Below the pieces are notes generated by a model. The model worked only from the letters and a program-made list of their open reading frames with translations, searched no databases and had not been told where the DNA came from. From the NCBI RefSeq assembly GCF_000147815.2, contig NC_015957.1, positions 2,480,001 to 2,544,000 of the forward strand: a stretch of 64,000 nucleotides of DNA. Direction: 5' to 3'. This document shows, piece after piece, positions 5,092 to 25,940 of this stretch. The DNA is from Streptomyces violaceusniger Tu 4113. GTDB lineage: Bacteria > Actinomycetota > Actinomycetes > Streptomycetales > Streptomycetaceae. The translations under genes were made by a program, and so were the position numbers. How positions within the stretch are numbered: the stretch's first letter is position 1; every line of letters begins with the position of its first letter.

Positions 5092-5108
5092 CCGGCCGCA
5101 AGGCATAG
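5075..5108. repeat. 17-bp perfect tandem duplication across the methyltransferase stop codon
   Basis: CCGGCCGCAAGGCATAG occurs twice back to back (5075-5091 and 5092-5108). The first copy holds the TAG stop; the second is untranslated. Because 17 is not a multiple of three, the duplication leaves the protein unchanged only because the stop lies in copy one. Confidence 0.95.
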
Positions 5109-5210
5109 TCCGGAACCAGGCGAGGCACCCCCGGCGGGCGGACCCTTCGATGCGGAGGTCGCAGCGGTCCGTGCGCCGGGGCATGACCCGCCCCGACCAG
5201 GAGGTGAACC

Positions 5211-6701: not shown

Positions 6702-6709
6702 CCCCCTGC

Positions 6710-7845
6710 CCGGCACCGCGCCCGTTCCTGTGCCACCTCTGGCGCGCGGCGGGGCACCCGTCCCCGGGCTCCTGGCGCGCGGCGGGGCGTCCGTCCCCGG
6801 GCTCCTGGCGCTCGGTAGCGTGCTCGTTCCCGGGCCCTGGGCCCCTGGGGTCTGGCAGCGCTGCGGTTCCGGACCCCGGGGCTCCTGGCAGCGCTGCGGT
6901 TCCGCGCCCGCGGCGCCCGGCGCCGCACCCGTTCCTGTGCCGCCTCCTGGCGCGTGGCGGCGTGCTCGTTCCCGCGCCTGCGGTGCCCGGCACCGTGCTC
7001 GTTCCCGGAACCCAGGTGTCTGGCAGCGCTGCGGTTCCGGGCCCGGGGGGCCTGGCAGCGTGCCTGTTGCGGTGCCGCCCCTTTGCGTTGCGCGCGGCGG
7101 GGCGTCCGTCCCCGGGCTCCTGGCGCGCGGCGGCGTGCTCGTTCCCGGGCCCTGGGCCCCCGGCGTCTGGCAGCGCTTGTGTTCCGGGCCCGCGGCGCCG
7201 GGCACCGTGCTGGCTTCCGGACCCCGGGGACCGCGCCTGGCAGCGTGCCCGTTGCTGTGCCGTCCCTTTGCGTTGCGCGCGGCGGCGCGTCCGTTCCCGG
7301 GCTCCTGGCGCGTGGCACCGTGCTCGTTCCCGCGCCCGCCGCCGGGCCCGCGGCGCCCGGCACCGTGCTGGCTCCCGGACCCCGGGCACCGCGCCTGGCA
7401 GCGTGCCTGTTGCTGTGCCGTCCCTTTGCGTTGCGCGCGGCGGCGCGTCCGTTCCCGGGCTCCTGGCGCGCGGCGGCGTGCTCGTTCCCGCGCCCCCCGG
7501 GCCCGCGGCGCCGGGCACCGTGCTGGCTTCCGGACCCCGGGGACCGCGCCTGGCAGCGTGCCTGTTGCTGTGCCGTCCCTTTGCGTTGCGCGCGGCGGCG
7601 CGTCCGTTCCCGGGCTCCTGGCGCGCGGCGGCGTGCTCGTTCCCGCGCCCCCCGGGCCCGCGGCGCCGGGCACCGTGCTGGCTTCCGGACCCCGGGCCCG
7701 CGGCGCCGGGCACCGTGCTGGCTTCCGGACCCCGGGCACCGCGCCCGGCACCGTGCTGGCTCCCGGACCCGGGGCACCGCGCCGGGCACCGTGCTGGCTC
7801 CCGGACCCCGGCAACGCGCCCGGCACCGGGCCCGTTGCCGTATAT
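6710..7845. repeat. Repeat array 1: about 1.1 kb of degenerate GC-rich tandem repeats, no supported gene
   Basis: The gap between the exporter and the phosphatase gene is almost entirely repeats. A long unit starting CTTTGCGTTGCGCGCGG recurs at 7081, 7266, 7424 and 7579 (spacings 185, 158 and 155). Shorter units such as CACCGTGCTGGCTTCCGGAC and GTGCTCGTTCCCG recur inside it, becoming a 30-40 bp tandem near 7660-7830. Long frames on both strands stay open here simply because stops are absent from the repeats; they give only Arg/Ala/Pro-rich repetitive peptides. I therefore call no gene. From 7846 to 7968 the DNA is unique and should hold the promoter of the next gene. Confidence 0.85.
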
Positions 7846-7968
7846 CGACGGGGTAAGCCCTGATGCCGGTCGAAAAGGGATTTGCGGCGGTCGCTCCCTT
7901 CACCTCGATGACACCGTCTGGCAGTCGGTATGCCACCTGCCGTCGCTGAGACATGATTCGATGAACGC

Positions 7969-8796
7969 ATGATCGATGAATTTCTCGCCGGTGATCTCGG
8001 CGCGGTGGAGCAGGCGATCCGCACGGCGGTCGCCGACGAGGTCATGCCGCGCTACCGGCAGCTCGCCGCCCACGAGATCGTGGAGAAGAAGGGTCCGCAC
8101 GACCTGGTGACCACCGCCGACCGGCAGGCCGAGGAGCATCTGACCGGCGCCCTCACCAAGCTGCTGCCCGGCTCCGTGGTGGTGGGCGAGGAGGCGGTGC
8201 ACGCCGACCCGGCCGTGCTCACCGCCCTCGGCGGCGACGCACCCGTATGGATCGTCGACCCGGTCGACGGCACCCGGCAGTTCGTCCACGGCGACCCCGG
8301 CTTCGCGACGCTGGTCACCCTCGCCCACGGCGAAGAGCTCCTCGCGTCCTGGACCTACGCCCCGGTGTTCGACCAGATGGCCATCGCCCGCCGCGGCGGG
8401 GGCGCCCTGCTGAACGGCGAGCCGATCCACTGCGGCTCCCCGGAGCCCGGCGCGGTCCTCCACGTGGCCGTCTCCCACTACGACTTCACCACCGACGAGG
8501 AGAAGCGCGCTCTGTCGGGGCTGCAGGTGCCGGGAGTTGAGGTGCGCCCCTGCGGTTCGGCCGGCCTGGAGTATCTGAACGTGGCCCGAGGGCTGCTCGA
8601 CGCCGTCGCCTTCACCTGGGAGAACGCCTGGGACCACGCCGCCGGTCTGTTGCTGGTCGGCGAGGCGGGCGGGGCGCATGCCACGCTGGCCGGCGAGCCG
8701 TTCCGGATCACCGGGGGCAATGCCCTTCCTTTCACGGCCGCCAGGGACGAGGCGACCGTTGCGCATATCCTGGGCTTGCTGGCCGCCGCCGGCTGA
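7969..8796 (+). CDS. Inositol monophosphatase family phosphatase
   Basis: A 275-residue Mg2+-dependent, Li+-sensitive-type phosphatase. All metal-site motifs are present: DLVTTAD ending at D51, GEE at 73-75, the signature VDPVDGTRQF (D97, D100) and WDHAAG (D221) with a following G-x-G turn. Family members act on inositol phosphates, histidinol phosphate or 3'-phosphoadenosine phosphate; the sequence alone does not separate these. ATG start at 7969 with no strong ribosome site. The next gene, an FAD oxidoreductase, begins 36 bases after its stop, so they probably share a transcript. Confidence 0.9.
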   Translation: MIDEFLAGDLGAVEQAIRTAVADEVMPRYRQLAAHEIVEKKGPHDLVTTADRQAEEHLTGALTKLLPGSVVVGEEAVHADPAVLTALGGDAPVWIVDPVDGTRQFVHGDPGFATLVTLAHGEELLASWTYAPVFDQMAIARRGGGALLNGEPIHCGSPEPGAVLHVAVSHYDFTTDEEKRALSGLQVPGVEVRPCGSAGLEYLNVARGLLDAVAFTWENAWDHAAGLLLVGEAGGAHATLAGEPFRITGGNALPFTAARDEATVAHILGLLAAAG

Positions 8797-10279: not shown

Positions 10280-11239
10280 TCAGTGCGGGATCGTGTCGAT
10301 GACCTCGCGGGCGCCCTGCCGCAGCAGCGCCACCGCGACCGACGTGCCCAGGGTGGCCGGGTCCAGCGGGCCCGCCCACTCGTGGGCGTCCAGCACTCTC
10401 TTGCCGTCCGGGCTGAAGACCCGGGCGCGCAGTGAGAGCCGCCCGTCGCGCTCGGCCTTGGCGTAGCCGGCGATGGGGGAGTTGCAGTGCCCCTGCAGCA
10501 CATGCAGCAGCATCCGCTCCGCGGTGATTTCCTTCCAGACGTCGGCGTCGCCGAGCCCGGCCACGGCCTCGATCGTCTCGGTGTCGTCCTCGCGGCACTG
10601 CAGCCCCAGCACCCCGGCCCCGATGGGCGGGCACATGGTGTCCACCGGGAGGATCTCGCTGATCCGGTCCGTACGGCCGATCCGCTCCAGCCCCGAGACG
10701 GCCAGCATCAGCGCGTCGCACTCGCCCGCCTCCAGCTTCTCCAGCCGGCGGTTGGCGTTGCCGCGCATCGGCACGCACTCCAGCTCCGGGTGGGTGATGG
10801 CGAGCTGGGCGACGCGCCGGACCGAGGAGGTGCCGATCCGGGTCCCCGCGGGCATCTCGTCGAGGGTCAGCCCCTCGGGGTGGATCACGGCGTCGCGGAT
10901 GTCGTCCCGCTTGAGGTACGCGGCGAAGACCGTGCCCGCGGGCAGCGGCCGGTCGGCGGGCACGTCCTTGATGCAGTGCACCGCGAGGTCCGCCTCGCCC
11001 GCCAGCAGCGCGGCGTCCACCTCCTTGGTGAACGCCCCCTTCCCGCCCAGCTTCGACAGATCACCCATCCACCGGTCCCCGGAGGTGGTGACCGGCACGA
11101 CCTCCGTACGGATGCCCGGCCGCAGCGCGGCCAGCTCGGCGCGGACCCGCTCCACCTGGGCCAGGGCCATGGGGGAGGAACGGGAGACGATGCGGATGAG
11201 TTCGGCGGAGCCGTGACCGGAGTCGGAGACGGAAGACAT
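10280..11239 (-). CDS. hemC: Hydroxymethylbilane synthase (porphobilinogen deaminase)
   Basis: A 319-residue enzyme that polymerises four porphobilinogen units into hydroxymethylbilane for heme, siroheme and B12. The catalytic Asp is D92 in HCIKDVP (usually HSMKDVP), the substrate-binding RIGTSSVRR lies at about 134-142, and the dipyrromethane cofactor Cys is C252 in GHCNSPIAG. No hemA, hemB or hemD is adjacent, although streptomycetes normally carry hemC in such a cluster, so this is probably a second copy. The downstream neighbour (minus sense) is the convergent FAD oxidoreductase; the large conflict-system gene ends 30 bases upstream. Confidence 0.93.
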
Positions 11240-11269: not shown

Positions 11270-14200
11270 CTATGTCCGGGCCCCGGGGAACCCCTCCGCG
11301 ACCAGCGCCGCGAGATCGAGGTAGGCGTCGAAGGTCCTGGGCGCCAGCTGCTCGAGGTCGATTTCCCTTCCAGCGGCCACATGGTCGTCGTACGGCACGA
11401 CGACCACGTCGCGGCAACGGGCCCGGAACTCCGTGACCGGGTCTTCTCTCGGGTCGGGCTGGGACGTCTCGTGTGATGTGCTGATCACGGTGATGGCGTT
11501 TCGTGCCAGGTCCCCGTGGCCGTCCTCGGCCAGCCGGTCCAGGATCGTGTGCGCGCTGTTCGTGAGTTCCGCGGACGGGGTGGTGACGATGATGAGCTGG
11601 TCGGCGAGGTCGAGCACGCCCCGCATGCCGGTGCGGGACGCGCCGGCGTCCGAGTCGGCGAGAATGATCGAGTAGTGCCTGCTCAGCGCCCCGATGACGC
11701 GGCGGTACTCCTCGTTGGTGACCGGGACTCGGGGGGTTCCCAGGCTCCTTTGGTCATAGTCCCCCGCGAGGATCTCGAGTCCGGACGGCTTCTGTGTGGT
11801 GAATTGCTCCAGGGACGCATGGTCGTCCGGAAACGGATCGCTGTGCGCCAGATCACGGATGGTCGCCCTGGTCTCGTGCCGAACGCGACGGGTGAGACCC
11901 CGGCCGCCGAGGATCGCGTCGACCGCGAGGACCTGCTCCTCGCGCTCAGTCGCGAAGATGGCGCCGAGCGCGAGGGTCGTCGCGGTCCGCCCGACCCCGA
12001 TCGGGTGGCTGATCACCGCGATGCGGTGACAGACCGTCAGGTCCCTCAGGATCACCTTCCGTTTACGTTGCCGCCGGGCACTTCTGCCGAATCCGGCGTT
12101 CCGGAGAATGGTCGTCAGACGGCTGGGGCGCGCGGCGCGGGCGGGCGGGGCCTCGGGCTGTTCCGGAAGCGGCACCTGAGAGCCGGGGACGGAGGTGTCC
12201 GGCGGCGAGTCGTCCGGGAGTTGGGCGTCCGTCGGGAGTTGGGCGTCCGTCGACTCGAGCTCGTACAGCGTCTCGTGGCCGAACGTCGGCATGGTCGTCA
12301 GGCACTGGACGAAGACGTCCGCCACCCGCCCCGCCGACGGTCGCCTGCTCGGCCGGTCGTCCAGACAGGCGGAGATGGTCGAGAGCAACTGGGGGTTGCG
12401 CCACAGGTCCATGGTGCGGATGAGCTCTCCGGTCGGCTGCGTGTCGCTCAGGGTGCGGAGGATCTGGCCCAGGGCGTAGACGCTGTCCGGGGTGGTGGGA
12501 GCTCCCTGGAGGCGGTCGCCGACACTCGCCTCGGTCCAGCCGATCAGTTTCACCGTGCTGTCGGTGACGAGCACGGTGTCCGCCGTGAGCGGCCCTGGCA
12601 CAACGCCCTTCAGCGAGCACATGTTCACCGCTTCGGCGATGCGGAGGCCGATGGTGGCGGCGTGTACGGCGTCCAGCCGGGGTGAGCCGTCGGGCCTTCG
12701 GCCCATGAGCGAGGACAGCGGTGGGGCCGGGGAGCCGTCGGGCAGTCGGACGCATTCCACCACGAGCCCCGGAGGGTTGAGCGAGGAGGCGTCGACGAAG
12801 AGCCGGGGGGCGTAGTGCCCGGCCATCCGCCGCAGCGCGTCCGCCTCGGCCCGCAGTCGCCGCCCGCTGCCCTGGGCGGTGCCGCCAGGGGCGATGCGTA
12901 TCACCACATCGTTCGACGCGCCCGGCCGACGGGCCAGATAGACGCCCTCCCCCCGACTGCCACCCAGCCTGCGGTAGGCCCGATACGCGTTGATCGACGG
13001 CAGGCCGCTCTCGGGCTCCGGGCGGGAGGCGCGAACGGAGTCGGGTGGCGCCGACGATGGTGGGGCCGTCAAGACATCCGAACCGCAGGTATCGCAGAAG
13101 CGGTCGTCCGGGGCCAGCGGACTGCCGCACTGCGCGCAGACGATGGGCCGCTCGGTCCGGGGGCGTCGGGCGCGGGGCTCCGGAGCCCCGGCCTCCGGCC
13201 GGAAGTGCGTGAGGAACTCCCAGACCTCGTGCGCGGTGTGGCCGTGGGGCCTCTCCCGGCACGACATCACCAGGGCGCGGAGCGGCTCCCAGGCGGCACT
13301 GCTCCAGCGCGGCATGAAATAGAGCCCCGGGGCGGGCCGACGCGTCGGCGCCCCGCCGCCGAGGCTCACCAGGATGTCGCCCAGCGCCCTGACGTTGTCC
13401 TCGGGGGTCGGCGGGCGGTCGCCGCCGAGTGCCGGCGACGGCACACCGTCGATGGACGCCGATGACCAGCCGGTCAGGAGGATGTCCGCACCAGCGACAT
13501 GCACGGTGCTGATGGTGAGGTCACCGTGCACCATGCCCGCCTCCTCGGACAGCCGTACCGCGTCCGCGACTTGGCGGGCGAGCCCGAGGGCGGTGCGCCC
13601 GTCCCACCGCCCGGGGTCGGTACGGGTGGCCTCGTCCAGCCGGTCGTCCCATCGCTCGGCGTCGCCGCGCAGGACGTCCAGCCGGTGGTCCCATCCCTCG
13701 GCGTCGCCGCGCAGGATGTAGTCCAGCCGGTCCCCGATGAAGGCTTCCTCCGCGAGCCACGGAACGTCGTCGCCCAGCCCTGTGCGCAGCAGACGCCGGG
13801 AGTAGCGCCCGTCCATCCGGCGCAGTGCCTCTGCCTCCACGCCCAGCAGGTCGGCGGCTTGCTGTCCGCGCAGATGGCGGGCGATCCGGACGATGGCCTC
13901 CGCACCGTAGGCGTCCTGGCCCAGAAAGGGATTGACTCGCGCTCCCGGCGGCCCGGCCATCGTCAGCCGGTACGGCCCGAGCGTGGGCGGGTCACCGGGT
14001 TCCGGGCGGCGCCACTCCTGCGCTGCGGTGGGGGTCGCGAACGCCGACGGCAGCGACGGCGCCCCCAGCCGGGTCGCCAGCCGTCGCTCCAGCGCGCTGA
14101 ACGGCCGGGCGCCGGCCGGAAGCCGGTCGGTGCCGCGCGTGTCGGCCAGCCAGGCCGGGAAGTCGGGGGAGCGGCCCGCCAGTTGTTCCAGCCGTTGGCC

Positions 14201-16129
14201 GATCAGCCTGCTGGTCGCGACCAGTTCGGACAGCGGTACCGCGCCCAGCAGGGCCCGCTGCGCCGCGTCGGCGAAGGCGAAGGGACGGTGTTCGGGCGGC
14301 AGCGGGTCCGGTCCCGCCGAGGCGGGCGGTTCGACGGGGTGCATCAGCCCGCCCAGGAACACCTCGGCGAGACGTCCGGTGTCGGTCCGGCCGTCCACCG
14401 CCTTCTGCACCATCCGCATCACCGGAACCGGCAGCGGAGCCACGGCGGCCAAATGGGCCGCCAGCCGGTACGCCTCCGGGGACGCCGCGTCCCGGAAGCG
14501 CTGCACGCGGCTCAGCTCATCGGCCGGGGTCGGGGCGGCGGCCGGGCCGGGGGATGTGGCGGCCGGGGTGGGGCGGGGGCCGCCGCGCCCCGGGTCCAGC
14601 AGCGGCAGGACGGCCGTACCGCTCGCGGAGGCGATCAGCCGGGCCCAGTCGGCCAGCGGTCCGGCGTCCGGTTCCAGCACCGGCACCGGAACCCCCTCGA
14701 ACCGCGCCAGGGCGGCGGGCAGCACCGGATCCGCGACCGTCCAGTCCGTATTGGCCGAGCCCGGTCTGCGGGTCCGCACCTGCCAGCGCCGCGCCCGGAT
14801 CCCGGAGCCCTCCCACAGCCGGGGCGGCAGCGCGTGCACCACCGCCGTGGGGCCGACCCCCGCCCAGCGCGCCAGCACCCGGCCCATCCGCCCGTCGCGC
14901 CACGCCGCCCCCACCCCGTCGCTCACCACGAGCACCAGCGTGTGCCCGGAGGGGTCGGAGAGCGCCGTCGTGGGGAGCCTGGGCGCGTCCGGGGCGTAGG
15001 GCCGGGCGCGCAGCGCGGGGGCGTCGGTGCCGCGCGTATGCAGCCCGAGGACGCGTACGACGCGGAACGCGCCCGAGCGCTGCAGCACCGTGCGCAGTTC
15101 GACGGCGAGCCGCCGCCACAGCAGCATCGACATCCCGTCGTCGATGACGAGCGCGAGATCGAGCCAGCGCTCGCGGGCGGGGCGGGTCACCACGTCCGGC
15201 AGACCGGTCTCGGCGAGCGCGGTGGCGGTGGCGGCCTCGTCGAACTCCCGCTTGAGCGGATTGGGGCGGTGCTGTTTCAGCGGGCGCAGGGCACGGCCGA
15301 TGGACAGCTCCTGGCGCAGCGCCTTGTCCTCGGGCACGCGCAGCGGCAGTGCGCGCCGCGCGTCGGGCGCCCCATCCGTACCGGGGCCCTGGCTTCCGCC
15401 GTACAGGCCGCGCAGCCGCTGATCGCCACGGGGGTGGGGGCGGGGCTGGTCCGGCGGGTCGTCCGGGCGCCCCTTCGCGGGGGCGGACGGCTGGGCGCCG
15501 GGGCCCTCGGCTTCGGGGGTACGGGCGGGGGCGGTCGGCTCGGGGGTCGGCTGGGCGGACGCGGCCGGGGAGGCCGTGGCGGGGGGACGGGCGGTCTCGG
15601 GGCGCGTGGCGGGCAGCGCCGTCCCGCCACCTGTCACCGCGCGGGCCAGGGGTGCCCACTCCACGCCGTCCTCGGGCAGCCGGCCGGCCAGCCAGAGCGC
15701 GTCGAGCAGCTCCTCCCTGGACAGTTCGAGACCGCTGGAGGCGAGGACCACCATCGCCTCGTCGAGCCGCCCCAACCGCTCGGTGCCGTCCTGCCCTGCG
15801 CGGTCTTGCACTGCACCGCTCGGCTTGGCGCGGTCTTGTCCGGCGTCGCTCGGCTCGGTGCCGTCCTGCCCTGCGCGGTCTTGCTCGGCGTCGCTCGGCT
15901 TGGCGCGGTCTTGCTCGGTGTCGCTCGGCTCGGTGTCGCTCGGCTTGGCGCAGTCTTGCCCGGCGCCGCTCGGCTTGGCGCAGTCTTGCTCGGTGTCGCT
16001 CGGATTGGCGTCGCTCGGCTCGGTGCCGCCCTGCCCGGCGCCCCCCTGCCCGGCGTCGCTCGGCTCGGCGTCGTCCCGCCCGGCACCGCCCTGCCCCGTG
16101 CCGCCCCGCCCAGCGTCCCCCCGGCTCAT
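11270..16129 (-). CDS. Giant multidomain vWA protein: SAV_2336-type / vWA / two pseudokinases / zinc ribbon / ParA-EspI-like domain
   Basis: A 1619-residue protein. In order: 23 imperfect pentapeptide repeats (5-119); a SAV_2336-like helical segment with ALWLAGRLP (about 121-155); a Pro-rich linker; a vWA-like domain (about 322-515) with MIDAS-like DDGMS at 330-334 and SDG at 403-405; a helical region; a kinase-like domain (about 718-975) where HRD reads HGD and DFG reads TGW; a zinc ribbon C998/C1001/C1012/C1015; a second kinase-like domain (about 1044-1280) with PGPLTADTV and IGW; and a ParA/EspI-like domain (1366-1615) with deviant Walker A IGVGRTATT. It starts 6 bases after the MoxR stop. 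The start is uncertain because no ribosome site is visible and the first 119 residues are repetitive. Likely the vWA partner of the MoxR and VMAP proteins. Confidence 0.8.
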   Translation of the reverse strand: MSRGDAGRGGTGQGGAGRDDAEPSDAGQGGAGQGGTEPSDANPSDTEQDCAKPSGAGQDCAKPSDTEPSDTEQDRAKPSDAEQDRAGQDGTEPSDAGQDRAKPSGAVQDRAGQDGTERLGRLDEAMVVLASSGLELSREELLDALWLAGRLPEDGVEWAPLARAVTGGGTALPATRPETARPPATASPAASAQPTPEPTAPARTPEAEGPGAQPSAPAKGRPDDPPDQPRPHPRGDQRLRGLYGGSQGPGTDGAPDARRALPLRVPEDKALRQELSIGRALRPLKQHRPNPLKREFDEAATATALAETGLPDVVTRPARERWLDLALVIDDGMSMLLWRRLAVELRTVLQRSGAFRVVRVLGLHTRGTDAPALRARPYAPDAPRLPTTALSDPSGHTLVLVVSDGVGAAWRDGRMGRVLARWAGVGPTAVVHALPPRLWEGSGIRARRWQVRTRRPGSANTDWTVADPVLPAALARFEGVPVPVLEPDAGPLADWARLIASASGTAVLPLLDPGRGGPRPTPAATSPGPAAAPTPADELSRVQRFRDAASPEAYRLAAHLAAVAPLPVPVMRMVQKAVDGRTDTGRLAEVFLGGLMHPVEPPASAGPDPLPPEHRPFAFADAAQRALLGAVPLSELVATSRLIGQRLEQLAGRSPDFPAWLADTRGTDRLPAGARPFSALERRLATRLGAPSLPSAFATPTAAQEWRRPEPGDPPTLGPYRLTMAGPPGARVNPFLGQDAYGAEAIVRIARHLRGQQAADLLGVEAEALRRMDGRYSRRLLRTGLGDDVPWLAEEAFIGDRLDYILRGDAEGWDHRLDVLRGDAERWDDRLDEATRTDPGRWDGRTALGLARQVADAVRLSEEAGMVHGDLTISTVHVAGADILLTGWSSASIDGVPSPALGGDRPPTPEDNVRALGDILVSLGGGAPTRRPAPGLYFMPRWSSAAWEPLRALVMSCRERPHGHTAHEVWEFLTHFRPEAGAPEPRARRPRTERPIVCAQCGSPLAPDDRFCDTCGSDVLTAPPSSAPPDSVRASRPEPESGLPSINAYRAYRRLGGSRGEGVYLARRPGASNDVVIRIAPGGTAQGSGRRLRAEADALRRMAGHYAPRLFVDASSLNPPGLVVECVRLPDGSPAPPLSSLMGRRPDGSPRLDAVHAATIGLRIAEAVNMCSLKGVVPGPLTADTVLVTDSTVKLIGWTEASVGDRLQGAPTTPDSVYALGQILRTLSDTQPTGELIRTMDLWRNPQLLSTISACLDDRPSRRPSAGRVADVFVQCLTTMPTFGHETLYELESTDAQLPTDAQLPDDSPPDTSVPGSQVPLPEQPEAPPARAARPSRLTTILRNAGFGRSARRQRKRKVILRDLTVCHRIAVISHPIGVGRTATTLALGAIFATEREEQVLAVDAILGGRGLTRRVRHETRATIRDLAHSDPFPDDHASLEQFTTQKPSGLEILAGDYDQRSLGTPRVPVTNEEYRRVIGALSRHYSIILADSDAGASRTGMRGVLDLADQLIIVTTPSAELTNSAHTILDRLAEDGHGDLARNAITVISTSHETSQPDPREDPVTEFRARCRDVVVVPYDDHVAAGREIDLEQLAPRTFDAYLDLAALVAEGFPGART
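15773..16117 (-). repeat. 15-bp tandem repeats encoding 23 pentapeptides in the giant protein
   Basis: Consecutive five-residue units of the form [DGRC]-[AT]-[EGKN]-[PQ]-[SDG], such as DAEPS, DTEQD and RAKPS, occupy residues 5-119. The DNA repeats with 15-bp period and drifts at single bases. The run keeps one frame, so either it is translated or an internal start (a GTG in the 21st unit) skips most of it. Confidence 0.85.
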
Positions 16130-16135
16130 GCGTCG

Positions 16136-17161
16136 CTACACCGCCCCGCCCAGCCGGTGCAGCACCGCTTCCAGGAGCCCGTCCGCCGTCACGTCCATGC
16201 CGCCCGCCCGCAGGAACACGGCGTTCAGCAGTTGGTCGGTCGCCAGCTCGCGGGCCGCGCGCCGACGGAGGAAGGCGTCCAGCAACTGATCGACCTCCTC
16301 CAGCGCGTCGTCCCCCAGATGCGCGGTGACGATCGCGCGCAGTCGCCCCTCGTCGGGGGTGGGCAGCTCCAGCCGTACGCAGCGGCGCAGGAAGGCGGGC
16401 GGGAAGTCGCGCTCGCCGTTGCTGGTGATCACCACGACCGGGAACTCCTCGCACACCAGCCGGCCCCGACGCACCGTGGCCCGCTCGCCCGCCCGTGCGG
16501 TGAGCACCTCCACCACCGACTGGTCCTCCGGCAGCCGGGCCAGCTCGGGGATCTCGAACTCGCCCTCCTCGAAGACGGTCAGCAGGTCGTTCGGCAGGTC
16601 GACATCGCCCTTGTCGAGTTCGTCGACGAGCAGCACCCGGGGGCGTTCGTTCGGCACCAGCGCGGTGCCCAGCGGTCCGAGCCGCACGAAGCTGCCGATG
16701 TCGGGCTCGGCCTCGCCACGGTCGCGGGTCAGGGCCGTCTCGCGCAGCCGCCCGATGGCGTCGTAGCGGTAGAGCGCGTCCTGCACGGTGGAACGGCTGT
16801 TGACCGGCCAGCGCAGCACCTCGCCCAGCCCCATCTCGTGCGCGACCGCCTGCGCGAGCGAGGACTTGCCGGTCCCCGGGCTGCCGGTGACGAGCAGCGG
16901 ACGTCGCAGATGGAGGGCGGCATTGACCACGTCGGCGTGTTCGGGCGAGATGAGATACGGCGCCGGGCCCGCCGGACCGGAAGCGGACGGCGCCTGCTCC
17001 CCGCCGGGGGCTTCCTGGTCCCCGCCGTCGAAGCGGCGCCACGGCGGGGCGGGTGGCATCTCCACGCGCCGGGGCACGCCGTCCCCCCGGAACAGCCGCC
17101 AGTCGTGCCGGTCCCGTGGATTCATCGGGGAACCTCCCTTTCGGTCCGCCTCAGCGGACAT
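16136..17161 (-). CDS. MoxR-type AAA+ ATPase of a vWA-MoxR-VMAP system
   Basis: A 341-residue AAA+ ATPase. Walker A GSPGTGKS is at 93-100, Walker B VLLVDELDK at 176-184, sensor-1 TSNGE at 246-250, and an arginine-finger candidate in FLRRC (259-260). MoxR ATPases remodel or load a partner with a vWA domain, here the giant protein encoded next. Two in-frame starts each carry a good ribosome site: ATG 17161 behind AGGAGG (7 bases) and ATG 17125 behind AAGGGAGG (about 7 bases). I chose the outer one; the inner removes 12 residues. The frame stays open upstream into the protease gene, but that part is not MoxR-like. Confidence 0.9.
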   Translation of the reverse strand: MSAEADRKGGSPMNPRDRHDWRLFRGDGVPRRVEMPPAPPWRRFDGGDQEAPGGEQAPSASGPAGPAPYLISPEHADVVNAALHLRRPLLVTGSPGTGKSSLAQAVAHEMGLGEVLRWPVNSRSTVQDALYRYDAIGRLRETALTRDRGEAEPDIGSFVRLGPLGTALVPNERPRVLLVDELDKGDVDLPNDLLTVFEEGEFEIPELARLPEDQSVVEVLTARAGERATVRRGRLVCEEFPVVVITSNGERDFPPAFLRRCVRLELPTPDEGRLRAIVTAHLGDDALEEVDQLLDAFLRRRAARELATDQLLNAVFLRAGGMDVTADGLLEAVLHRLGGAV

Positions 17162-17225
17162 CGCGCGCCTCCTGTCATCATCACGTCCTGCCGTCCGCGC
17201 CCAGCACGGCCACCGCGCCCCACCG

Positions 17226-19436
17226 TCACTCCGTCGGGTCCGCGAGGTCCAGCCGTGGCAGCGCCCGTCCGGCGTCGGCCCAGGCGAGCACCGGCCGCCC
17301 GCTGTACTCCTCGGGTCTCTGCAGGGTTTTCGTGCGGTAGGTCCGTACCGCTTCGGGCAGTTCACGGGTGCTCACCCCCGCCGCGTGGCGCACGGCCGGG
17401 GATCCCGCCTCCCCGCTCCGGTCCCACAGCACCACCGGAATACCCGCGGCGAGACACATCTGCACCACACCGGTGCGCCGGTGGGCCGCCACATCGATGG
17501 TGACCCGGGCGGTGAGCCGCTCCATGACCAGCCCGCACACCGCCTCCGGGTCCGGGGCCGTGGCGTCGTCGATGTGCACGGGCTCCTCGGCGTCCAGCCG
17601 GACCCAGCGCTCCCGCCACTGGTCGAGCATGGTGCCGCCGTTCAGCTCCCGCAGCTCGGGGCAGTTGACGACCAGGGGGTACGGAGTGCCGAGCCGCATG
17701 GGGAGCACCGCGCCCGGGCCCGCGGCCTTCCAGCGGTCCACGGGCACCTCCAGGGCGTCCCGGTCCACGATCAGTTCGATGACGGGCCGTGGCCCCGAGG
17801 GGTCGGGTCGGCGCAGCGAGCCCACGGCGGCGAAGATCTCCTGGGCCACCTCCTCGGCGCCGCGCGGCCGTTCACTGTCGTCCGACACCTGGCGCAGCCC
17901 GTCCCCGTCGTCGCACCACAGCCGCAGCCGGTACCGCTCCGGCTCCTCCCGCGCCGTCGCCGACGTGCCACCCGATGGAGCCCCGCAGAGGTCCAGCTTC
18001 GCCACGACGCGGGGCGCGGAGCCCCGGGAGGCGCTCTGTGCCCACTGCTCGGCCTCGAGGCGGCGTTCGGTCATGGCGGCGTCATGGACGCCGAGGCGGC
18101 GGGCGACCGCCGCGTTCCACCGCCGCAGCGGGGTGCGCTGGTCCGCCGGACAGCACCCGGCGGCCACGAACTCCACGGCGCGCAGCAGCCCCGGCACGGC
18201 CATGACCCCGTCGTCGATCGGCGAGCTGTCGCCGTGCAGCCCCTCCAGATGGGCGATCAGAGCCTCGAACCGCCCGGCGGGGCCGGTGCTGTTCCTGCCC
18301 TCATCACAGTGGCCGCCGTCACCGCCATGTCCGCCGTCACCGCCGGTGAGCAGCGCCGCGGGCAGGGCCGCCAGCGGCAGCGCCGCCCGTACGGCCCCGG
18401 GGACACCCGCCGCGGCGGCCGTGGGCAGGGCGCGCAGCAGCACCAGCAGCCGCTCGTGCTCACCCGGCGAGAGCAGCTTGGGCAGACCGCAACGGCGTCC
18501 GATCGCGAGGAGGTCGTCGGCCGCCGTGCCCGCCGTGCCCGCCGTGCCGCGCACCGCCTCGACCAGCGCGGGCAGGGCACGCCCCCGGGTGAGCAGCAGA
18601 TGGGCGAACTCGTCGGCGGAGGGCACGCCGTCCGCACGATGGCCGAGGCCGCACTGCCGGGCGACCGTCCGGCAGGAGCGTATCCAGCCCTCGGACCGCG
18701 GCAACGGCCCGTCCAGCAGGGAGACGAGCTCCGCGTAGCCCGGGTGGTCGCGTACGTCCTCCTCGGGCTGCCGGGGCAGCAGATGGCCCGCCCCGGCGTC
18801 GTGCAGCTCCCGCGCCACGCGCTGCCAGGGGATTCCCCAGGCGCGGCGCAGCGTCCCCTGGATGCGGAGCTTCGCCGTCACGAGCCCGACGACGGCGCCC
18901 TCCTCGTTGGACCACAACGGGCCGCCGCTGTAGGCGGGTTCGATGTCCAGGGCGCGCTCGGCTCCGTCGAAGTAGCCGAACCGCCCGTCGCATTCGCTCA
19001 CTTCGGCATCGGCGAAGACCCCCGGCTCACCGCTGCCGTGCCAGGCCCGTACGAGCTGCCGCTGGGCCATCGGGTGCCAGCGCGGTGGCTCGATCGCGGG
19101 CGGCAGGGCCGCGGACAGCCGCAGTACGGCGAGGTCGCCGTTCCACTCGAAGGCGCCCAGGCCGCCGTCGTCCGTCCGGGGCGGTATCCAGACCGCCAGC
19201 TCGGCCTCGGCCTCGACGGTGTGCTCCGGTCCGTGGAGCCTTACGGGAACGGCGACCGGGCCCGGGTGATCCGGGGCCAGCCTGTCCTTTCCAAGGGCGC
19301 TGTTGACCACATGAGCGCAGGTCAGCAGATGGCGGCGGGGCAGCAGGACGCCCGCGCCCGCCGGTCTTCCGTCGGCCTTGGCGAGAATGGATACGGCGGG
19401 CCGCGACAAGGACCCGTGCGCGTGGAACCACCCCAT
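17226..19436 (-). CDS. Trypsin-like serine protease fused to VMAP modules
   Basis: A 736-residue protein. Residues 1-215 form a trypsin-fold protease with an intact triad: H42 in LTCAHVV, D101 in NGDLAVLRL and S170 in YSGGP. A helical middle region (about 225-345) and linker lead to a C-terminal VMAP-C-like domain (about 510-700), recognisable from PVIELIVDRDALEVPVDRW and the later DQWRERW and GIPVVLWDR segments. VMAP proteins are described as effector-bearing partners of vWA and MoxR proteins in predicted conflict systems; here the effector would be proteolysis. There is no signal peptide, so it acts in the cytoplasm. The start lies 3 bases after the Trypco1 stop, implying coupling. Confidence 0.85.
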   Translation of the reverse strand: MGWFHAHGSLSRPAVSILAKADGRPAGAGVLLPRRHLLTCAHVVNSALGKDRLAPDHPGPVAVPVRLHGPEHTVEAEAELAVWIPPRTDDGGLGAFEWNGDLAVLRLSAALPPAIEPPRWHPMAQRQLVRAWHGSGEPGVFADAEVSECDGRFGYFDGAERALDIEPAYSGGPLWSNEEGAVVGLVTAKLRIQGTLRRAWGIPWQRVARELHDAGAGHLLPRQPEEDVRDHPGYAELVSLLDGPLPRSEGWIRSCRTVARQCGLGHRADGVPSADEFAHLLLTRGRALPALVEAVRGTAGTAGTAADDLLAIGRRCGLPKLLSPGEHERLLVLLRALPTAAAAGVPGAVRAALPLAALPAALLTGGDGGHGGDGGHCDEGRNSTGPAGRFEALIAHLEGLHGDSSPIDDGVMAVPGLLRAVEFVAAGCCPADQRTPLRRWNAAVARRLGVHDAAMTERRLEAEQWAQSASRGSAPRVVAKLDLCGAPSGGTSATAREEPERYRLRLWCDDGDGLRQVSDDSERPRGAEEVAQEIFAAVGSLRRPDPSGPRPVIELIVDRDALEVPVDRWKAAGPGAVLPMRLGTPYPLVVNCPELRELNGGTMLDQWRERWVRLDAEEPVHIDDATAPDPEAVCGLVMERLTARVTIDVAAHRRTGVVQMCLAAGIPVVLWDRSGEAGSPAVRHAAGVSTRELPEAVRTYRTKTLQRPEEYSGRPVLAWADAGRALPRLDLADPTE

Positions 19437-19439
19437 GGC

Positions 19440-19877
19440 TCAGGCCGAGGGGCCGGGCCGGGACGGCTGTGGCGGCTGCGGCGGCACCGTCGGCTCGGGC
19501 CGCTCCGACGGCCTCCAGGTGGCCGAGAGCGTCAAGTTGGCGTTCCCATTGGCGCCCACGATGCCGAGTTTGAGGTCCTGGCCGACCTGCACCCCGAACT
19601 GCACGGTGAACTCCTGGGGCGGATGGGGAGTCGAGCGGACGGCGTCGTGCACATCCTCCAGCACCGACCCCAGCCCTTGGAGGATGACGTTCAGGCTGGC
19701 GTTGGCGAGCGTGACCGCGGCCTGCGCACCGCGCCCCACCGGGGTCACGCCACCGACGCCGCCGTACGCGTCCTCGAGAGAGGCGTCCCCTACGGGGGCC
19801 AGTTCCAGCCGTACGGTGGTGCCGTTCGCCAGGGGTATCTCACGGTGTTCCGTCACATTCCTCATCATGCCGATCAT
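19440..19877 (-). CDS. Trypco1-like (trypsin-co-occurring, CU044_2847-type) protein
   Basis: A small protein of about 145 residues and first gene of the minus-strand locus. It carries the beta-rich N-terminal pattern IPLANGTTVRLELAPV and a C-terminal FTVQFGVQVGQDLKLGIVGANGNANLTLSATW, which match what I recall of Trypco1 proteins found beside protease-type effectors. The tail is Pro-rich. The start is unsettled: ATG 19877 follows a GGGGG stretch, while ATG 19868/19865 or GTG 19910 are possible. It lies directly before the protease-VMAP gene and probably binds or restrains that protease (inference from linkage). Confidence 0.72.
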   Translation of the reverse strand: MIGMMRNVTEHREIPLANGTTVRLELAPVGDASLEDAYGGVGGVTPVGRGAQAAVTLANASLNVILQGLGSVLEDVHDAVRSTPHPPQEFTVQFGVQVGQDLKLGIVGANGNANLTLSATWRPSERPEPTVPPQPPQPSRPGPSA

Positions 19878-20018
19878 CAGGCCCCCGGTCTGCCCCTTCG
19901 CACCAAACACCGCCGGAACGGGGACATGGCGCGGGGCGAGGCGGGCGGGCGTCGCCCGGTGAGGTCAACGTCGGATTCCCGCGAGAACGGACCCGCCCCG
20001 CTGACGGATGCTGGACCC

Positions 20019-21494
20019 ATGCACACCGACACCGACCGCTGTCTCCGCGCCGCACAGGCGAAGGACGCCCGCTTCGACGGGTGGTTCTTCGTCGCCGTCG
20101 TGACCACCGGGATCTACTGTCGGCCGAGCTGTCCGGTCGTCGGGCCCAAGGCCGAGAACATGCGTTTCCACCCCAGCGCCGCGGCCGCCCAGCAGGCCGG
20201 GTTCCGGGCCTGCAAGCGGTGCCGTCCGGACGCCAGCCCCGGATCGCCGCAGTGGAACGAGCGCGCCGACCTCGTCGCGCGGGCCATGCGGCTGATCGCC
20301 GACGGCGTGGTGGACCGGGACGGGGTGCCGGGGCTGGCGGCCCGGCTGGGATACAGCACCCGGCAGGTCGAGCGGCAGTTGCTCGCCGAGCTCGGCGCGG
20401 GCCCGCTCGCGCTGGCCAGGGCGCAGCGGGCACAGACCGCGCGGCTGCTCATCGAGACCAGCGCGCTCCCGATGGCGGACATCGCCTTCGCGGCCGGGTT
20501 CGCCAGCGTCCGCGCGTTCAACGAGACCGTACGGGAGGTCTTCGCGCTCTCCCCGACCGAGCTGCGGCAGCGGGCCACCCGCGGGCCGCGCACCAGCGTG
20601 CCGGGGGCGCTCACCCTGCGGCTGCCGTTCCGGGCGCCGCTGTGCCCGGACAACCTCTTCGGGCATCTGGCCGCCACCGCCGTCCCCGGAGTCGAGGAGT
20701 GGCGCGACGGCGCCTACCGGCGGACGCTGCGGCTGCCGTACGGGCCCGGGGTGGTCACCCTGAGCCCACGGCCGGACCACATCGCCTGCCAGCTCTCGCT
20801 TGCCGACCTCCGCGACCTGGCCGGGGCGATCAGCCGCTGCCGACGGCTGCTGGACCTCGACGCGGACCCGACCGCCGTGGACGACCTGCTGCGTACGGAC
20901 CTTCAACTGGCGCCGCTGGTCGACAAGGCCCCGGGGCGGCGGGTGCCGCGCGCGGTGGACGCGGACGAGTTCGCGGTGCGCGCCGTGCTCGGCCAGCAGG
21001 TGTCCACGGCCGCCGCCCGCACCCACGCCGGGCGGCTGGTGGCGGCGCACGGCGAGCCGGTGGAGGACCCGGGGGGCGGCCTGACCCACCTCTTCCCGTC
21101 CGTCCAGGCCCTCGCCGGGCTGGACCCCGAGACGCTGGCCATGCCCCGCACCCGCCGCGCCACCCTCACCGGGCTGGTCGGCGCGCTCGCCGAGGGCCGG
21201 GTCGCACTCGGCGTCGGCAGCGACTGGGACGACGCCCGCGCGGCCCTGGGCACGCTGCCGGGGCTCGGCCCCTGGACCGTCGAGGTGATCGCGATGCGCG
21301 CCCTCGGCGACCCGGACGCCTTCGTCCCGACCGACCTCGGGGTGCGGCGCGCCGCCGCCGAACTGGGACTGCCCGCCACGCCCGGCGCCCTCACCCGCCA
21401 CTCGGCACGCTGGCGCCCCTGGCGCGCGTACGCCGTCCAGCACCTCTGGGCGACGGATGCCGCCCACGCCATCAACCGCCTGCCCGCGGCGTGA
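20019..21494 (+). CDS. alkA: Ada-AlkA fusion: methylphosphotriester sensor, AraC-type HTH and 3-methyladenine glycosylase
   Basis: A 491-residue alkylation-repair protein. The N-terminal Ada zinc domain has its four Cys (C34, C38, C65, C68; CRPSC and CKRC). An AraC-type helix-turn-helix region (about 80-185) contains GLAARLGYSTRQVERQL. The AlkA half (about 200-490) has the HhH motif LPGLGPWTVEVIAMR and the catalytic Asp D439 in PTDLGVR. It would sense methylphosphotriesters, activate repair genes and excise alkylated purines. It lacks the O6-methyltransferase part of E. coli Ada; that function sits in the next gene. ATG 20019 was chosen because it begins the Ada domain; the much longer open frame upstream is spurious. 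Confidence 0.93.
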   Translation: MHTDTDRCLRAAQAKDARFDGWFFVAVVTTGIYCRPSCPVVGPKAENMRFHPSAAAAQQAGFRACKRCRPDASPGSPQWNERADLVARAMRLIADGVVDRDGVPGLAARLGYSTRQVERQLLAELGAGPLALARAQRAQTARLLIETSALPMADIAFAAGFASVRAFNETVREVFALSPTELRQRATRGPRTSVPGALTLRLPFRAPLCPDNLFGHLAATAVPGVEEWRDGAYRRTLRLPYGPGVVTLSPRPDHIACQLSLADLRDLAGAISRCRRLLDLDADPTAVDDLLRTDLQLAPLVDKAPGRRVPRAVDADEFAVRAVLGQQVSTAAARTHAGRLVAAHGEPVEDPGGGLTHLFPSVQALAGLDPETLAMPRTRRATLTGLVGALAEGRVALGVGSDWDDARAALGTLPGLGPWTVEVIAMRALGDPDAFVPTDLGVRRAAAELGLPATPGALTRHSARWRPWRAYAVQHLWATDAAHAINRLPAA

Positions 21495-21508
21495 TGGCCC
21501 GCCGGGCC

Positions 21509-21656
21509 GCACCCGGCAACGAAACGGTGGAAACCGGCTGGGCGACGAACCGGTTTGTGGGCAATCGTCCCGCAGGGGGGCCTCCCAGCGGTAGCTGGGG
21601 GAGGGACGGGTGGGCACAAACCGGCCACCGGCCCGCACCCGGCGACGAGACGGTGG
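21509..21656. repeat. Intergenic hairpin flanked by a 22-bp direct repeat
   Basis: Imperfect 22-base inverted arms at 21550-21571 and 21603-21624 (CCGGTTTGTG... against ...CACAAACCGG) enclose a smaller hairpin at 21581-21604, CCTCCCAGC-GGTA-GCTGGGGGAGG. Outside are direct copies of GCACCCGGCAACGAAACGGTGG (21509-21530 and 21635-21656, 20 of 22 equal). The inner hairpin resembles a dispersed element I recall from many Streptomyces intergenic regions. It may act as terminator or processing site between alkA and ogt. Confidence 0.7.
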
Positions 21657-21702
21657 CCCGCCACCCGGGGAAGCCGCCCAACCCGCACCCGAGAGGAACT
21701 TC

Positions 21703-22206
21703 GTGCATCGCACCCACACCGTCGTAGACAGCCCCTACGGCCCCCTCACCCTCGTGGCCACCGGCCCGCAACTGTCCGGCCTCTACATGGTCGAGCAACG
21801 CCACCGCCCGCCCGAGGAGACCTTCGGCGCGCCCGGCGGCCCCGACGACGCCCCCTTCGCCGAGACCGTCCGCCAGCTCGCGGCCTACTTCGAGGGCGAG
21901 TTGACCGCGTTCGACCTGCCGCTGCACCTGGACGGCACGCCCTTCCAGCGGCGCGTCTGGGCCGAGCTGCGGCGCATCCCGTACGGCGGGACGTGGTCGT
22001 ACGGGCAGTTGGCCGACCACATCGGGCAGCCGACCGCGTCCCGTGCCGTGGGCCTGGCGAACGGCAAGAACCCGGTCGGCATCATCGTCCCCTGCCACCG
22101 CGTCGTCGGCTCCAGCGGCAGCCTCACCGGCTACGGCGGCGGCCTGGACCGCAAGCGGCGGCTGCTGGAGTTCGAGGCGCGGCAGCAACTGCCCGGCCTC
22201 TTCTGA
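21703..22206 (+). CDS. ogt: Methylated-DNA-[protein]-cysteine S-methyltransferase
   Basis: A 167-residue suicide repair protein that takes O6-methyl groups from guanine. The active site IIVPCHRVVG places the acceptor at C131, preceded by the recognition helix region SYGQLADHIGQPTASRAVGLANGKNP. The GTG at 21703 has GAGAGGAA 4-5 bases upstream and matches the family N-terminus; the open frame upstream to 21610 is Arg/Pro-rich and not conserved-looking. It follows the Ada-AlkA gene, forming an alkylation-damage repair pair probably induced together. Confidence 0.94.
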   Translation: MHRTHTVVDSPYGPLTLVATGPQLSGLYMVEQRHRPPEETFGAPGGPDDAPFAETVRQLAAYFEGELTAFDLPLHLDGTPFQRRVWAELRRIPYGGTWSYGQLADHIGQPTASRAVGLANGKNPVGIIVPCHRVVGSSGSLTGYGGGLDRKRRLLEFEARQQLPGLF

Positions 22207-22226
22207 ACGCCTTTCGGGCCCGGTGC

Positions 22227-22988
22227 TCAGCCGCCGCCGCCCCCGCCGCCTGCGGCAACGCGGTCCAGCACGGCGGGCAGCGCCGTACTGATGGGCTCGC
22301 GGACGACCTCGTCCGCGAGCTCGTCGTACGGCGTCGGCTCGGCGTTGACGATGATCAGCCGGGCGCCGTGCTCGGCGGCCAGCCCGGCGAGCGAGGCCGC
22401 GGGCTGGACCTGGAGGCTGGTGCCGACCGCGATGAAGATCTCGCACGCCTGCGCCACCGCGACCGCCTCGGTCAGCACCTCCGGATCGAGACTCTCCCCG
22501 AACATCACCGTGGCCGACTTCAGGATCCCGCCGCACTCCCGGCACGCCGGATCCGGATCACCCGCCGCGACCCGCTCCAGCGCCTCCTCCATCCCGGACC
22601 GCGCCTCGCAGTGGGTGCACAGCACGGCCCGCGCGGTGCCGTGCAGTTCGAGCACCTTGCGCGTGGGCATCCCGGCGATCTGGTGCAGCCCGTCCACGTT
22701 CTGGGTGATCACCCGCACCGGCACCCCCGAGCGCTCCAGCCGGGTGACGGCCTCATGCGCCCCGTTGGGCCGGGCGCGCAGCGTCTCGCTGTCGCGCCGC
22801 ATCTGCCAGGAGCGGCGCCGGATCTCCGGGTCGGTCATGTAGTACTCGTACGTCACGAGCTTCTCGGCCTCGGGGTCGCGCCGCCAAAGACCCTGCGGAC
22901 CGCGGTAGTCGGGGATGCCGGAGTCGGTGGAGATGCCCGCCCCGCTCAGGATCGCCACCAGCGGCCGGTGCGTTGTCTCGCTGCTCAT
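22227..22988 (-). CDS. Sir2-family NAD-dependent protein deacylase
   Basis: A 253-residue sirtuin. The NAD-binding GAGIS is at 16-20 followed by [17 protein letters not shown] is at 95-102, the catalytic base is H116 in ELHG, and the structural zinc is held by C124, C127, C149 and C152. It removes acyl groups from protein lysines, releasing nicotinamide and O-acyl-ADP-ribose. The protein ends in a seven-Gly run. ATG 22988 was chosen at the domain boundary; the open frame continues about 200 bases upstream without sirtuin features. It converges on ogt with a 20-base gap and lies downstream of an ADP-ribosylglycohydrolase on the same strand. Confidence 0.92.
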
Positions 22989-23204
22989 GCGGCGAGCGTA
23001 CGCACGCCGCACGGCCGACGGCGACCGCCTTTCCCCGGCCGGGTGAAGTCCGTCCGACACCGGGACGGACGCGGCGGACGGGGAGAGTGGGGGCGAGCGG
23101 GCCCGGGCAGGTTCGGTACGTCCGAACGGGGCCTCCTGCGGGAGTGGCTCGACCGGATCGCCGATCCGGGCGGCCCACACCGTCATCGGGCCGACTGAGA
23201 CCGG

Positions 23205-25664: not shown

Positions 25665-25736
25665 CCCCGGGCTGGGCCACCGGGGGCCCTTCCCCACCCC
25701 GCCCCACCCCCGAACCGGGGGAAGCCTCCGGCCCCA

Positions 25737-25940
25737 CCGGGGCTGCGCCCGGGGCCTCACCGGGGCTGCGCCCGGGGCCTCACCGGGGCTGGGCCCGGGG
25801 CCTCACCGGGGCTGGGCCCGGGGCCTCACCGGGGCTGGGCCCGGGGCCTCACCGGGGCTGGGCCCGGGGCCTCACCGGGGCTGGGCCCGGGGCCTCACCG
25901 GGGCTGGGCCCGGGGCCTCACCGGGGCTGCGCCCCTGGAC
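25737..25940. repeat. Repeat array 2: eight near-perfect 23-bp tandem copies plus a partial ninth
   Basis: Unit CCGGGGCTGGGCCCGGGGCC+TCA repeats from 25737 to 25920 in exact 23-base register, with a truncated ninth copy after it. The first two copies have CTGCG in place of CTGGG. Each unit is rich in self-complementary GGGCCCGGGG. It lies between convergent glycerate kinase and pssA and codes for nothing convincing; degenerate relatives of the unit continue to about 26270. Confidence 0.97.

Follow-up and report, generated by a model that had tools for sequence, protein, structure and literature searches.

Exchangeable and probably inactive modules, one derived from the host ATPase SCO5717, on the vWA protein of a Streptomyces VMAP ternary system

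Four abutting minus-strand genes in a 64,000-nucleotide stretch of the Streptomyces violaceusniger Tu 4113 chromosome (the window; all coordinates are positions within it) encode a Trypco1-domain protein, an intact trypsin-VMAP protease, a MoxR ATPase and a 1619-residue vWA protein of five modules, as a preliminary description of this DNA had stated. Judged from sequence, the locus is a VMAP ternary system in which a near-invariant vWA core is joined to deeply divergent, recombining alleles of a pseudokinase (K1) and of a ParA-like module, and the latter was captured from a host protein, descending from the ATPase domain of SCO5717. The predicted output enzyme appears intact and the variable end dead. 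A conserved protease switch read out by exchangeable, catalytically dead mimics of a host protein—that is, by bait—is our leading interpretation, to which we give not quite an even chance. The parts of the system are as follows.

19440..19910, minus strand: Trypco1-domain protein (Pfam PF19493, 1.7e-17; NF041216), with an alternative ATG start at 19877
17226..19436, minus strand: VMAP protein (Pfam), with a trypsin-like protease (residues 27–185), a variable middle and VMAP-C (500–722)
16136..17125, minus strand: MoxR AAA ATPase, with the motifs WRLFRG and PPWRRF and the Walker A motif GSPGTGKS; start codon picked by similarity to relatives
11270..16129, minus strand: vWA protein, 1619 amino acids, five modules (sequence, NCBIfam and structure-model matches)
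15770..16129, minus strand: N-terminal repeat tail of the vWA protein (residues 1–120), differing in length among orthologs
14174..15718, minus strand: SAV_2336 N-terminal/vWA core (residues 138–652; NF041121, 2.2e-114)
13190..14005, minus strand: predicted pseudokinase 1 (K1; residues 709–980), a hypervariable cassette (alignment and structure model)
13076..13138, minus strand: zinc ribbon with four cysteines (residues 998–1018; Pfam and alignment)
12272..13006, minus strand: predicted pseudokinase 2 (K2; residues 1042–1286; alignment and structure model)
11273..12106, minus strand: captured SCO5717-type MinD/ParA ATPase domain (residues 1342–1619), a hypervariable cassette (searches, trees and structure model)
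11984..12007, minus strand: degenerate Walker A motif HPIGVGRT (KGGVGKT in host SCO5717; alignment)

The assignment to the vWA-MoxR-VMAP family holds: VMAP-C matches PF20028 at 116.3 bits (cut-off, 27), the gene order agrees, a trypsin-type VMAP stands with Trypco1, and WRLFRG and PPWRRF correspond to the two N-terminal MoxR motifs (WxhapG and PsWRxa) given in the account of these systems in PMC7159879. Inspection by eye found both MIDAS-type aspartates in the vWA core (VIDDGMSM and VVSDGVG). The N-terminal motif [D/E]xxx[D/E]xxx-aromatic is matched no more than loosely, by SREELLDALWL. The N-terminal tail is encoded by an in-frame tandem repeat and spans approximately 2 to 186 residues across close orthologs.

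Variable cassettes on a conserved core

The orthologous locus stands beside hemC in seven genomes (the window and loci L098–L103; L100 ends before the ada/alkA side). Between the window and L098, DNA identity is 98% for the Trypco1 gene, 99% for the protease, 97–98% for the rest of the VMAP gene, 97% for MoxR, 97% for the vWA core and 94% for hemC, as against 68% for K1, 92% for K2 and 66% for the ParA-like module; the repeat tail and the linker before the ParA-like module differ too. L099 has the window's ParA allele (95%) joined to a different K1 (80%), and L100 is 96% (K1), 92% (K2) and 94% (ParA) identical to the window. Over the 630 pairs formed by 36 orthologous proteins (one, P0008, a fragment), median identity is 91% for the vWA core, 67% for K1, 71% for K2 and 56% for the ParA-like module. 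With distance cuts of our own choosing, K1 falls into three clusters and the ParA-like module into six, and 11 of the 18 combinations were found. Two pairs of proteins that differ in a single cassette point to recombination: P0004 and P0011 (both named S. antimycoticus) share 99% of the core, 97% of K1 and 94% of K2 but 47% of the ParA-like module, and P0014 and P0015 (both named S. javensis) share 99% of the core, 100% of K2 and 99% of the ParA-like module but 61% of K1.

Nei–Gojobori estimates of nonsynonymous (dN) and synonymous (dS) change between the window and L098 are 0.013 and 0.07 for the vWA core and 0.40 and 0.56 for the ParA-like module; over the compared pairs, dN/dS is 0.14–0.25 for the core and 0.59–0.80 for the module. 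In this pair, dS of the module is about eightfold that of the neighbouring core, a contrast that speaks against relaxed constraint as the sole explanation, which was rejected on this ground. The SCO5717 domain of the host, compared between the same two genomes, has a dN of 0 and a dS of 0.047 (0 amino-acid changes in 256), and in all seven genomes host SCO5717 is 97–100% identical to the window's host copy. The captured copies are 40–50% identical to that protein, the 40% being a partial match in G235.

Source of the ParA-like module

The preliminary description had rightly seen a ParA/EspI-like domain at the end of the vWA protein but missed both its origin in SCO5717 and its mosaic alleles. 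SCO5717, the gene of which adjoins type VII secretion genes, is nearly universal in Streptomyces. Residues 654–1619 of the vWA protein gave a match in 58 of 61 Streptomyces genomes, the best matches being an SCO5717-type protein with 47–51% identity from about residue 1330 on; two of the three genomes without a match are 79–82% complete and one (G046) is 99% complete. The SCO5717 of the source genome (C3:1965150) passes NF041021, the NCBI model 'SCO5717 family growth-regulating ATPase', at 86.6 bits (cut-off, 35) and stands with EccE, EccB and, by eye, subtilase-like and small WXG100-like genes; the NCBI names of relatives agree with this identity. 'Growth-regulating' is the NCBI family name only, and a literature search for SCO5717 found no paper. 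NF041021 is absent from the NCBIfam matches of the window's vWA protein up to E 1, so the N-terminal domain of SCO5717 was not found there. An origin from cell-division MinD/ParA proteins was rejected: the module is approximately 50% identical to SCO5717 but matches no solved MinD-type sequence better than E 3.8e-4. A scan of the genome contigs with the C-terminal part returned one locus.

Relatives at E up to 1e-20 were present in 23 of 60 genomes sampled across the class, four of them Streptomyces. In a tree with 23 outgroup rows from other genera of the class, all 20 vWA rows fall together with the 20 Streptomyces SCO5717-type rows in a single clade (100/100); the vWA label needs five changes in the best tree, at least two of them forced by well-supported branches, and P0042 and P0046 group with an SCO5717 protein (98/95), away from the window's group. 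In the tree without an outgroup, a single clade for all 22 vWA rows was rejected (p-AU 0.026, for a grouping already seen on an earlier quick tree), with four changes, three of them forced. Adding plasmid copies gave the same picture, except that P0039, P0041 and P0043, which lie inside the window clade in the outgroup tree (95/91), leave the window's group. Of the 52 vWA rows in the first tree, these three careful trees used 22, 20, and 20 plus three new ones (L104, L106 and L107), with the long-branch rows L028–L032, P0044 and P0029 left out; branching within the SCO5717 rows is weakly supported, and a change of label may be a loss as well as a gain. The trees thus indicate that the module, for the 20 copies tested, is a captured copy nested within Streptomyces SCO5717, and that the captures probably number two to five. 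The captured domain in the vWA protein of L104 retains an intact KGGVGKT and, at 80–88% identity to the main copy of SCO5717 in each of 33 sampled genomes, is clearly SCO5717.

Among plasmid records, 261 match the ParA-like module, all at less than 60% identity. Three Streptomyces plasmids have SCO5717-like genes at approximately 49%, and the annotation of two of these genes is MinD/ParA or AAA ATPase. L118, L119 and L120 are Streptomyces megaplasmids with short SCO5717-like ATPases, the genes of which lie in a recurring neighbourhood, approximately 5–9 kb from a plasmid ParA gene and an HTH/MarR regulator.

Catalytic state and possible function

The VMAP protease of the window has a complete triad (H42/D101/S170, in a trypsin domain matching PF13365), as have 120 of 120 homologs among the matches listed (277 homologs were found), which bears out the intact protease of the preliminary description; the structure model of the protein resembles HtrA/trypsin folds. 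The MoxR Walker A motif is intact in the window. The two kinase-like modules, by contrast with this predicted output enzyme, seem dead, as had been proposed. Read by eye against kinase motifs, K1 (IVRI, HGDLTISTV and LTGW) has neither the beta-3 lysine nor the lysine and asparagine of the catalytic loop nor the aspartate of DFG, and K2 (VIRI, PGPLTADTV and LIGW) lacks all of these and the HRD aspartate. On these readings, together with a structure model for the folds, both are predicted to be catalytically dead kinase folds; a single domain took up most of the matches listed for that model. When K1 and K2 were searched against solved structures with phmmer, no kinase match of note emerged. Within their own genome, they match only each other (39% over 84–90 amino acids), apart from two weak N-lobe matches of K1, and no source kinase could thus be traced.

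The Walker A motif of the ParA-like module is lost in the window; across 52 vWA ParA copies, it is intact in 4, altered with GK[ST] kept in 5 (including SGKST in L032) and lost in 43. KGGxGK[ST] is present in 74 of 74 proteins classed as SCO5717-type from names or domains (P0048–P0121). The alignment of 37 of the 52 vWA proteins covers most of K1 (≥241 residues; P0001–P0036 and P0044); the other 15 align over ≤107 residues of it, which suggests a single kinase in each. Several of the 52 aligned rows are without the zinc ribbon. We conclude from the alignments that the doubled kinase and the zinc ribbon are probably a local elaboration.

A live, conserved core of protease, ATPase and vWA domain with variable, dead, host-derived modules fits a receptor that carries bait and responds by proteolysis. 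In such a receptor, a foreign factor that binds SCO5717-type ATPases (or kinases) would dock on the mimic; through the vWA domain and the MoxR ring, docking would lead to remodelling of the complex, which VMAP-C would relay to the trypsin domain; and the latter would cleave a candidate target, perhaps Trypco1-linked or the vWA protein itself, stopping the cell or blocking the invader. Turnover of alleles might then answer counter-adaptation by the invader. We infer every step from docking to protease activation. The more specific version, an integrated-decoy immunity in which the MoxR-driven switch guards the host ATPase through dead, repeatedly captured copies (and kinases), with deep classes of bait alleles passing between Streptomyces species much as NLR genes are polymorphic in plants or MHC genes in vertebrates, is possible but doubtful. 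Such a system might be triggered by a factor from a phage, a plasmid or a rival that targets SCO5717-type ATPases, including the SCO5717-like proteins of Streptomyces megaplasmids.

Several results weigh against the modules being bait. Some captures have an intact Walker A motif, so a module need not be dead. Inside a single ParA allele class, dN/dS runs from 0.55 to 1.38 (the highest value resting on two synonymous changes) and does not exceed 1 consistently; positive selection within a class was thus not seen, which speaks against a simple codon-by-codon arms race. The L104 copy is closer to SCO5717 of other genomes (88%) than to that of its own (84%), so tracking of the own host gene is unsupported. 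Five vWA copies (L028–L032) sit on long branches outside the SCO5717 clade in the quick tree with midpoint root. A search of 50,697 phage records with the ParA-like module gave one remote match (28.5%), and no foreign ligand is known.

The direction of signalling could also be the reverse: the VMAP middle would sense, the trypsin domain would cleave the vWA protein, and the freed ParA and kinase modules would act as dominant negatives, the ParA-like module poisoning host SCO5717 and hence growth or type VII secretion. This has the merits of being a published model, of accounting for modules that are dead copies and of matching the NCBI name of SCO5717 as a growth-regulating ATPase. MinD/ParA proteins function as dimers, and a dead copy could poison such a dimer. 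A poison of a fixed target should not vary, however, as these modules do, with alleles differing at about half of their residues between genomes in which SCO5717 is 97–100% identical; the model is weakened because its presumed target is invariant while the modules vary, and the captures with an intact Walker A motif also speak against it. We regard it as unlikely. The SCO5717-derived domain might instead only place the complex at the site of SCO5717—membrane, type VII apparatus or nucleoid—with the kinase folds as scaffold and variety arising by drift and horizontal exchange. The dN/dS of about 0.6–0.8 in the module, and the lack of visible positive selection, would suit such an address tag, but a tag for a fixed partner should stay alike, and the eightfold dS in one pair speaks for imported or long-kept alleles and not for relaxed constraint alone; this, too, seems rather unlikely to us. 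Allorecognition, in which polymorphic modules would mark strain identity and the protease would kill or seal off unlike fused hyphae, as in fungal heterokaryon incompatibility, is in keeping with deep allele classes that recombine at a fixed site between conserved flanks and are shared between species, and with the multicellular hosts of these systems described in PMC7159879. It leaves the repeated capture of the same host ATPase unexplained, and no partner gene of opposite allele was noticed; we hold it improbable.

With the modules read as bait, we favour a predicted arrangement in which the vWA end senses and the VMAP N-terminus acts. The preliminary description had named the VMAP N-terminus as effector and ascribed this to Kaur and colleagues; the text of PMC7159879 on these systems places effectors at the vWA C-terminal domains, and the direction itself matches the proposal in PMC10907252. 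The two published models thus disagree on which end senses and which acts, and a search of the open-access literature found no experimental test of either. A dead module traced to one named host protein, together with natural pairs of alleles differing in a single cassette, makes the sensing question directly testable. If the modules are bait, bacteria would possess an equivalent of the integrated decoys of plants, and SCO5717 would stand out as a target of invaders.

Genomic site and related systems

A DNA search with the vWA core gave a match in at least 70 of 392 Streptomyces genomes, a lower bound because the search needs DNA likeness. The preliminary description had treated loss of co-inheritance, or separate genes for the C-terminal parts in relatives, as fatal to its reading; neither was found. 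The genes for Trypco1, VMAP, MoxR and vWA stand in order at 24 of 26 examined loci, the other two being cut by contig ends, and the C-terminal parts are fused in relatives; one relative, L027, has an interrupted vWA gene (4130–8409), reflecting either an assembly error or an allele that is dead. The vWA end matches ParA in 25 of the 26 (L113 is without a match), a share biased upwards because L027–L032 were chosen with a query that included the C-terminal ParA part. Among the ten loci to which these six belong, L026 is that of host SCO5717, and L033, L034 and L035 lie outside the 26. At L035, MoxR stands with a VMAP-like gene and with a vWA protein that has no ParA match; a neighbouring Trypco1 gene was not noticed there. 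An apparent loss of VMAP-C in L103 was dismissed, as the middle and C terminus of its VMAP fall in a run of 1364 N.

Two genes outside the system flank it.

10280..11239, minus strand: hemC-like porphobilinogen deaminase (Pfam; 89–97% DNA identity at six orthologous loci)
20118..21494, plus strand: most of an Ada/AlkA DNA-repair protein (Pfam), a recurring neighbour

The interval between hemC and ada/alkA (window 10280–11239 and 20118–23186) holds VMAP systems of at least two lineages across Streptomyces: L106 has a different lineage between the two genes and L107 one beside hemC, and in other genomes L030, L031, L110, L113 and L114 adjoin ada/alkA and ogt. Recurring neighbours are Sir2, ogt and ada/alkA, and the neighbourhood looks like a favoured site, possibly a hotspot of conflict systems. 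Elsewhere in the window, two adjoining repeats at 7184–7828, a tandem one of 155 bp (3.3 copies, 96% matches) and one of 38 bp (4.6 copies), lie in a strongly AT-skewed, G+C-rich stretch separating two plus-strand genes, and a 23-bp tandem repeat (8.9 copies, 98% matches) lies at 25730–25934. The same chromosome carries a second VMAP ternary system (L005 3852–12469; G000:C3:3.89 Mb), with nucleoside-phosphorylase-EAD2, EAD2-VMAP, MoxR and vWA-NB-ARC-TPR proteins; the paralogous systems of the source genome therefore differ at the vWA C terminus, a usual, not strict, trait of VMAP ternary systems.

PADLOC gave weak AAA-type matches for MoxR (best, 9e-6), one match for the vWA protein at E 0.022 and none for the Trypco1 or VMAP proteins. 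The MoxR protein is weakly alike to MadB of the anti-phage system MADS (NF047784; 64.3 bits, cut-off 475), too low for MADS membership, and the pseudokinases of P0042 and P0046 are weakly alike to MAD6 (NF047741; 45.1 and 49.5 bits, cut-off 460). Trypsin-like proteases have been linked to other defence systems (PMC12799240), in a report the relevant parts of which make no mention of MoxR, vWA or VMAP. The SCO5717 family (NF041021), as source of the module, is approximately 50% identical to it in the window and up to 88% in L104; the window copy lacks the SCO5717 N-terminal domain and an intact Walker A motif. Plant integrated-decoy NLRs are immune receptors that carry a copy of a host protein as bait; our interpretation invokes the same idea with an unrelated receptor and a hypothetical ligand.

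VMAP ternary systems were predicted by Kaur, Burroughs, Iyer and Aravind in 2020, in the fixed order VMAP, MoxR, vWA, with Trypco1 beside trypsin-type VMAPs and, at vWA C termini, mostly disrupted kinases coupled to MinD/ParA domains predicted to be inactive (PMC7159879, in its sections on these systems). The window shares with them the gene set and order, the MoxR motifs, the trypsin–Trypco1 pairing, the vWA core and the joining of pseudokinase to inactive MinD/ParA, and the claim of the preliminary description that this architecture was unknown is therefore rejected. Those sections call the MinD/ParA part a cell-division family and name no source protein; the pairing of pseudokinases around a zinc ribbon, the origin in SCO5717, the capture on several occasions and the mosaic alleles go beyond them. 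Dore et al. (2024) proposed, in the part of PMC10907252 on ternary systems, that vWA senses, MoxR relays and the trypsin-VMAP protease acts. A hypervariable vWA C terminus as proposed sensor and trypsin-VMAP as effector are common to both cases, but C-type-lectin domains are varied by a retroelement in the diversity-generating-retroelement systems described there, whereas in the window dead enzyme modules appear to be varied by allele exchange. The architectural theme and the sensor–relay–protease proposal are thus known, and the SCO5717 source, the multiple captures and the mosaic alleles are new.

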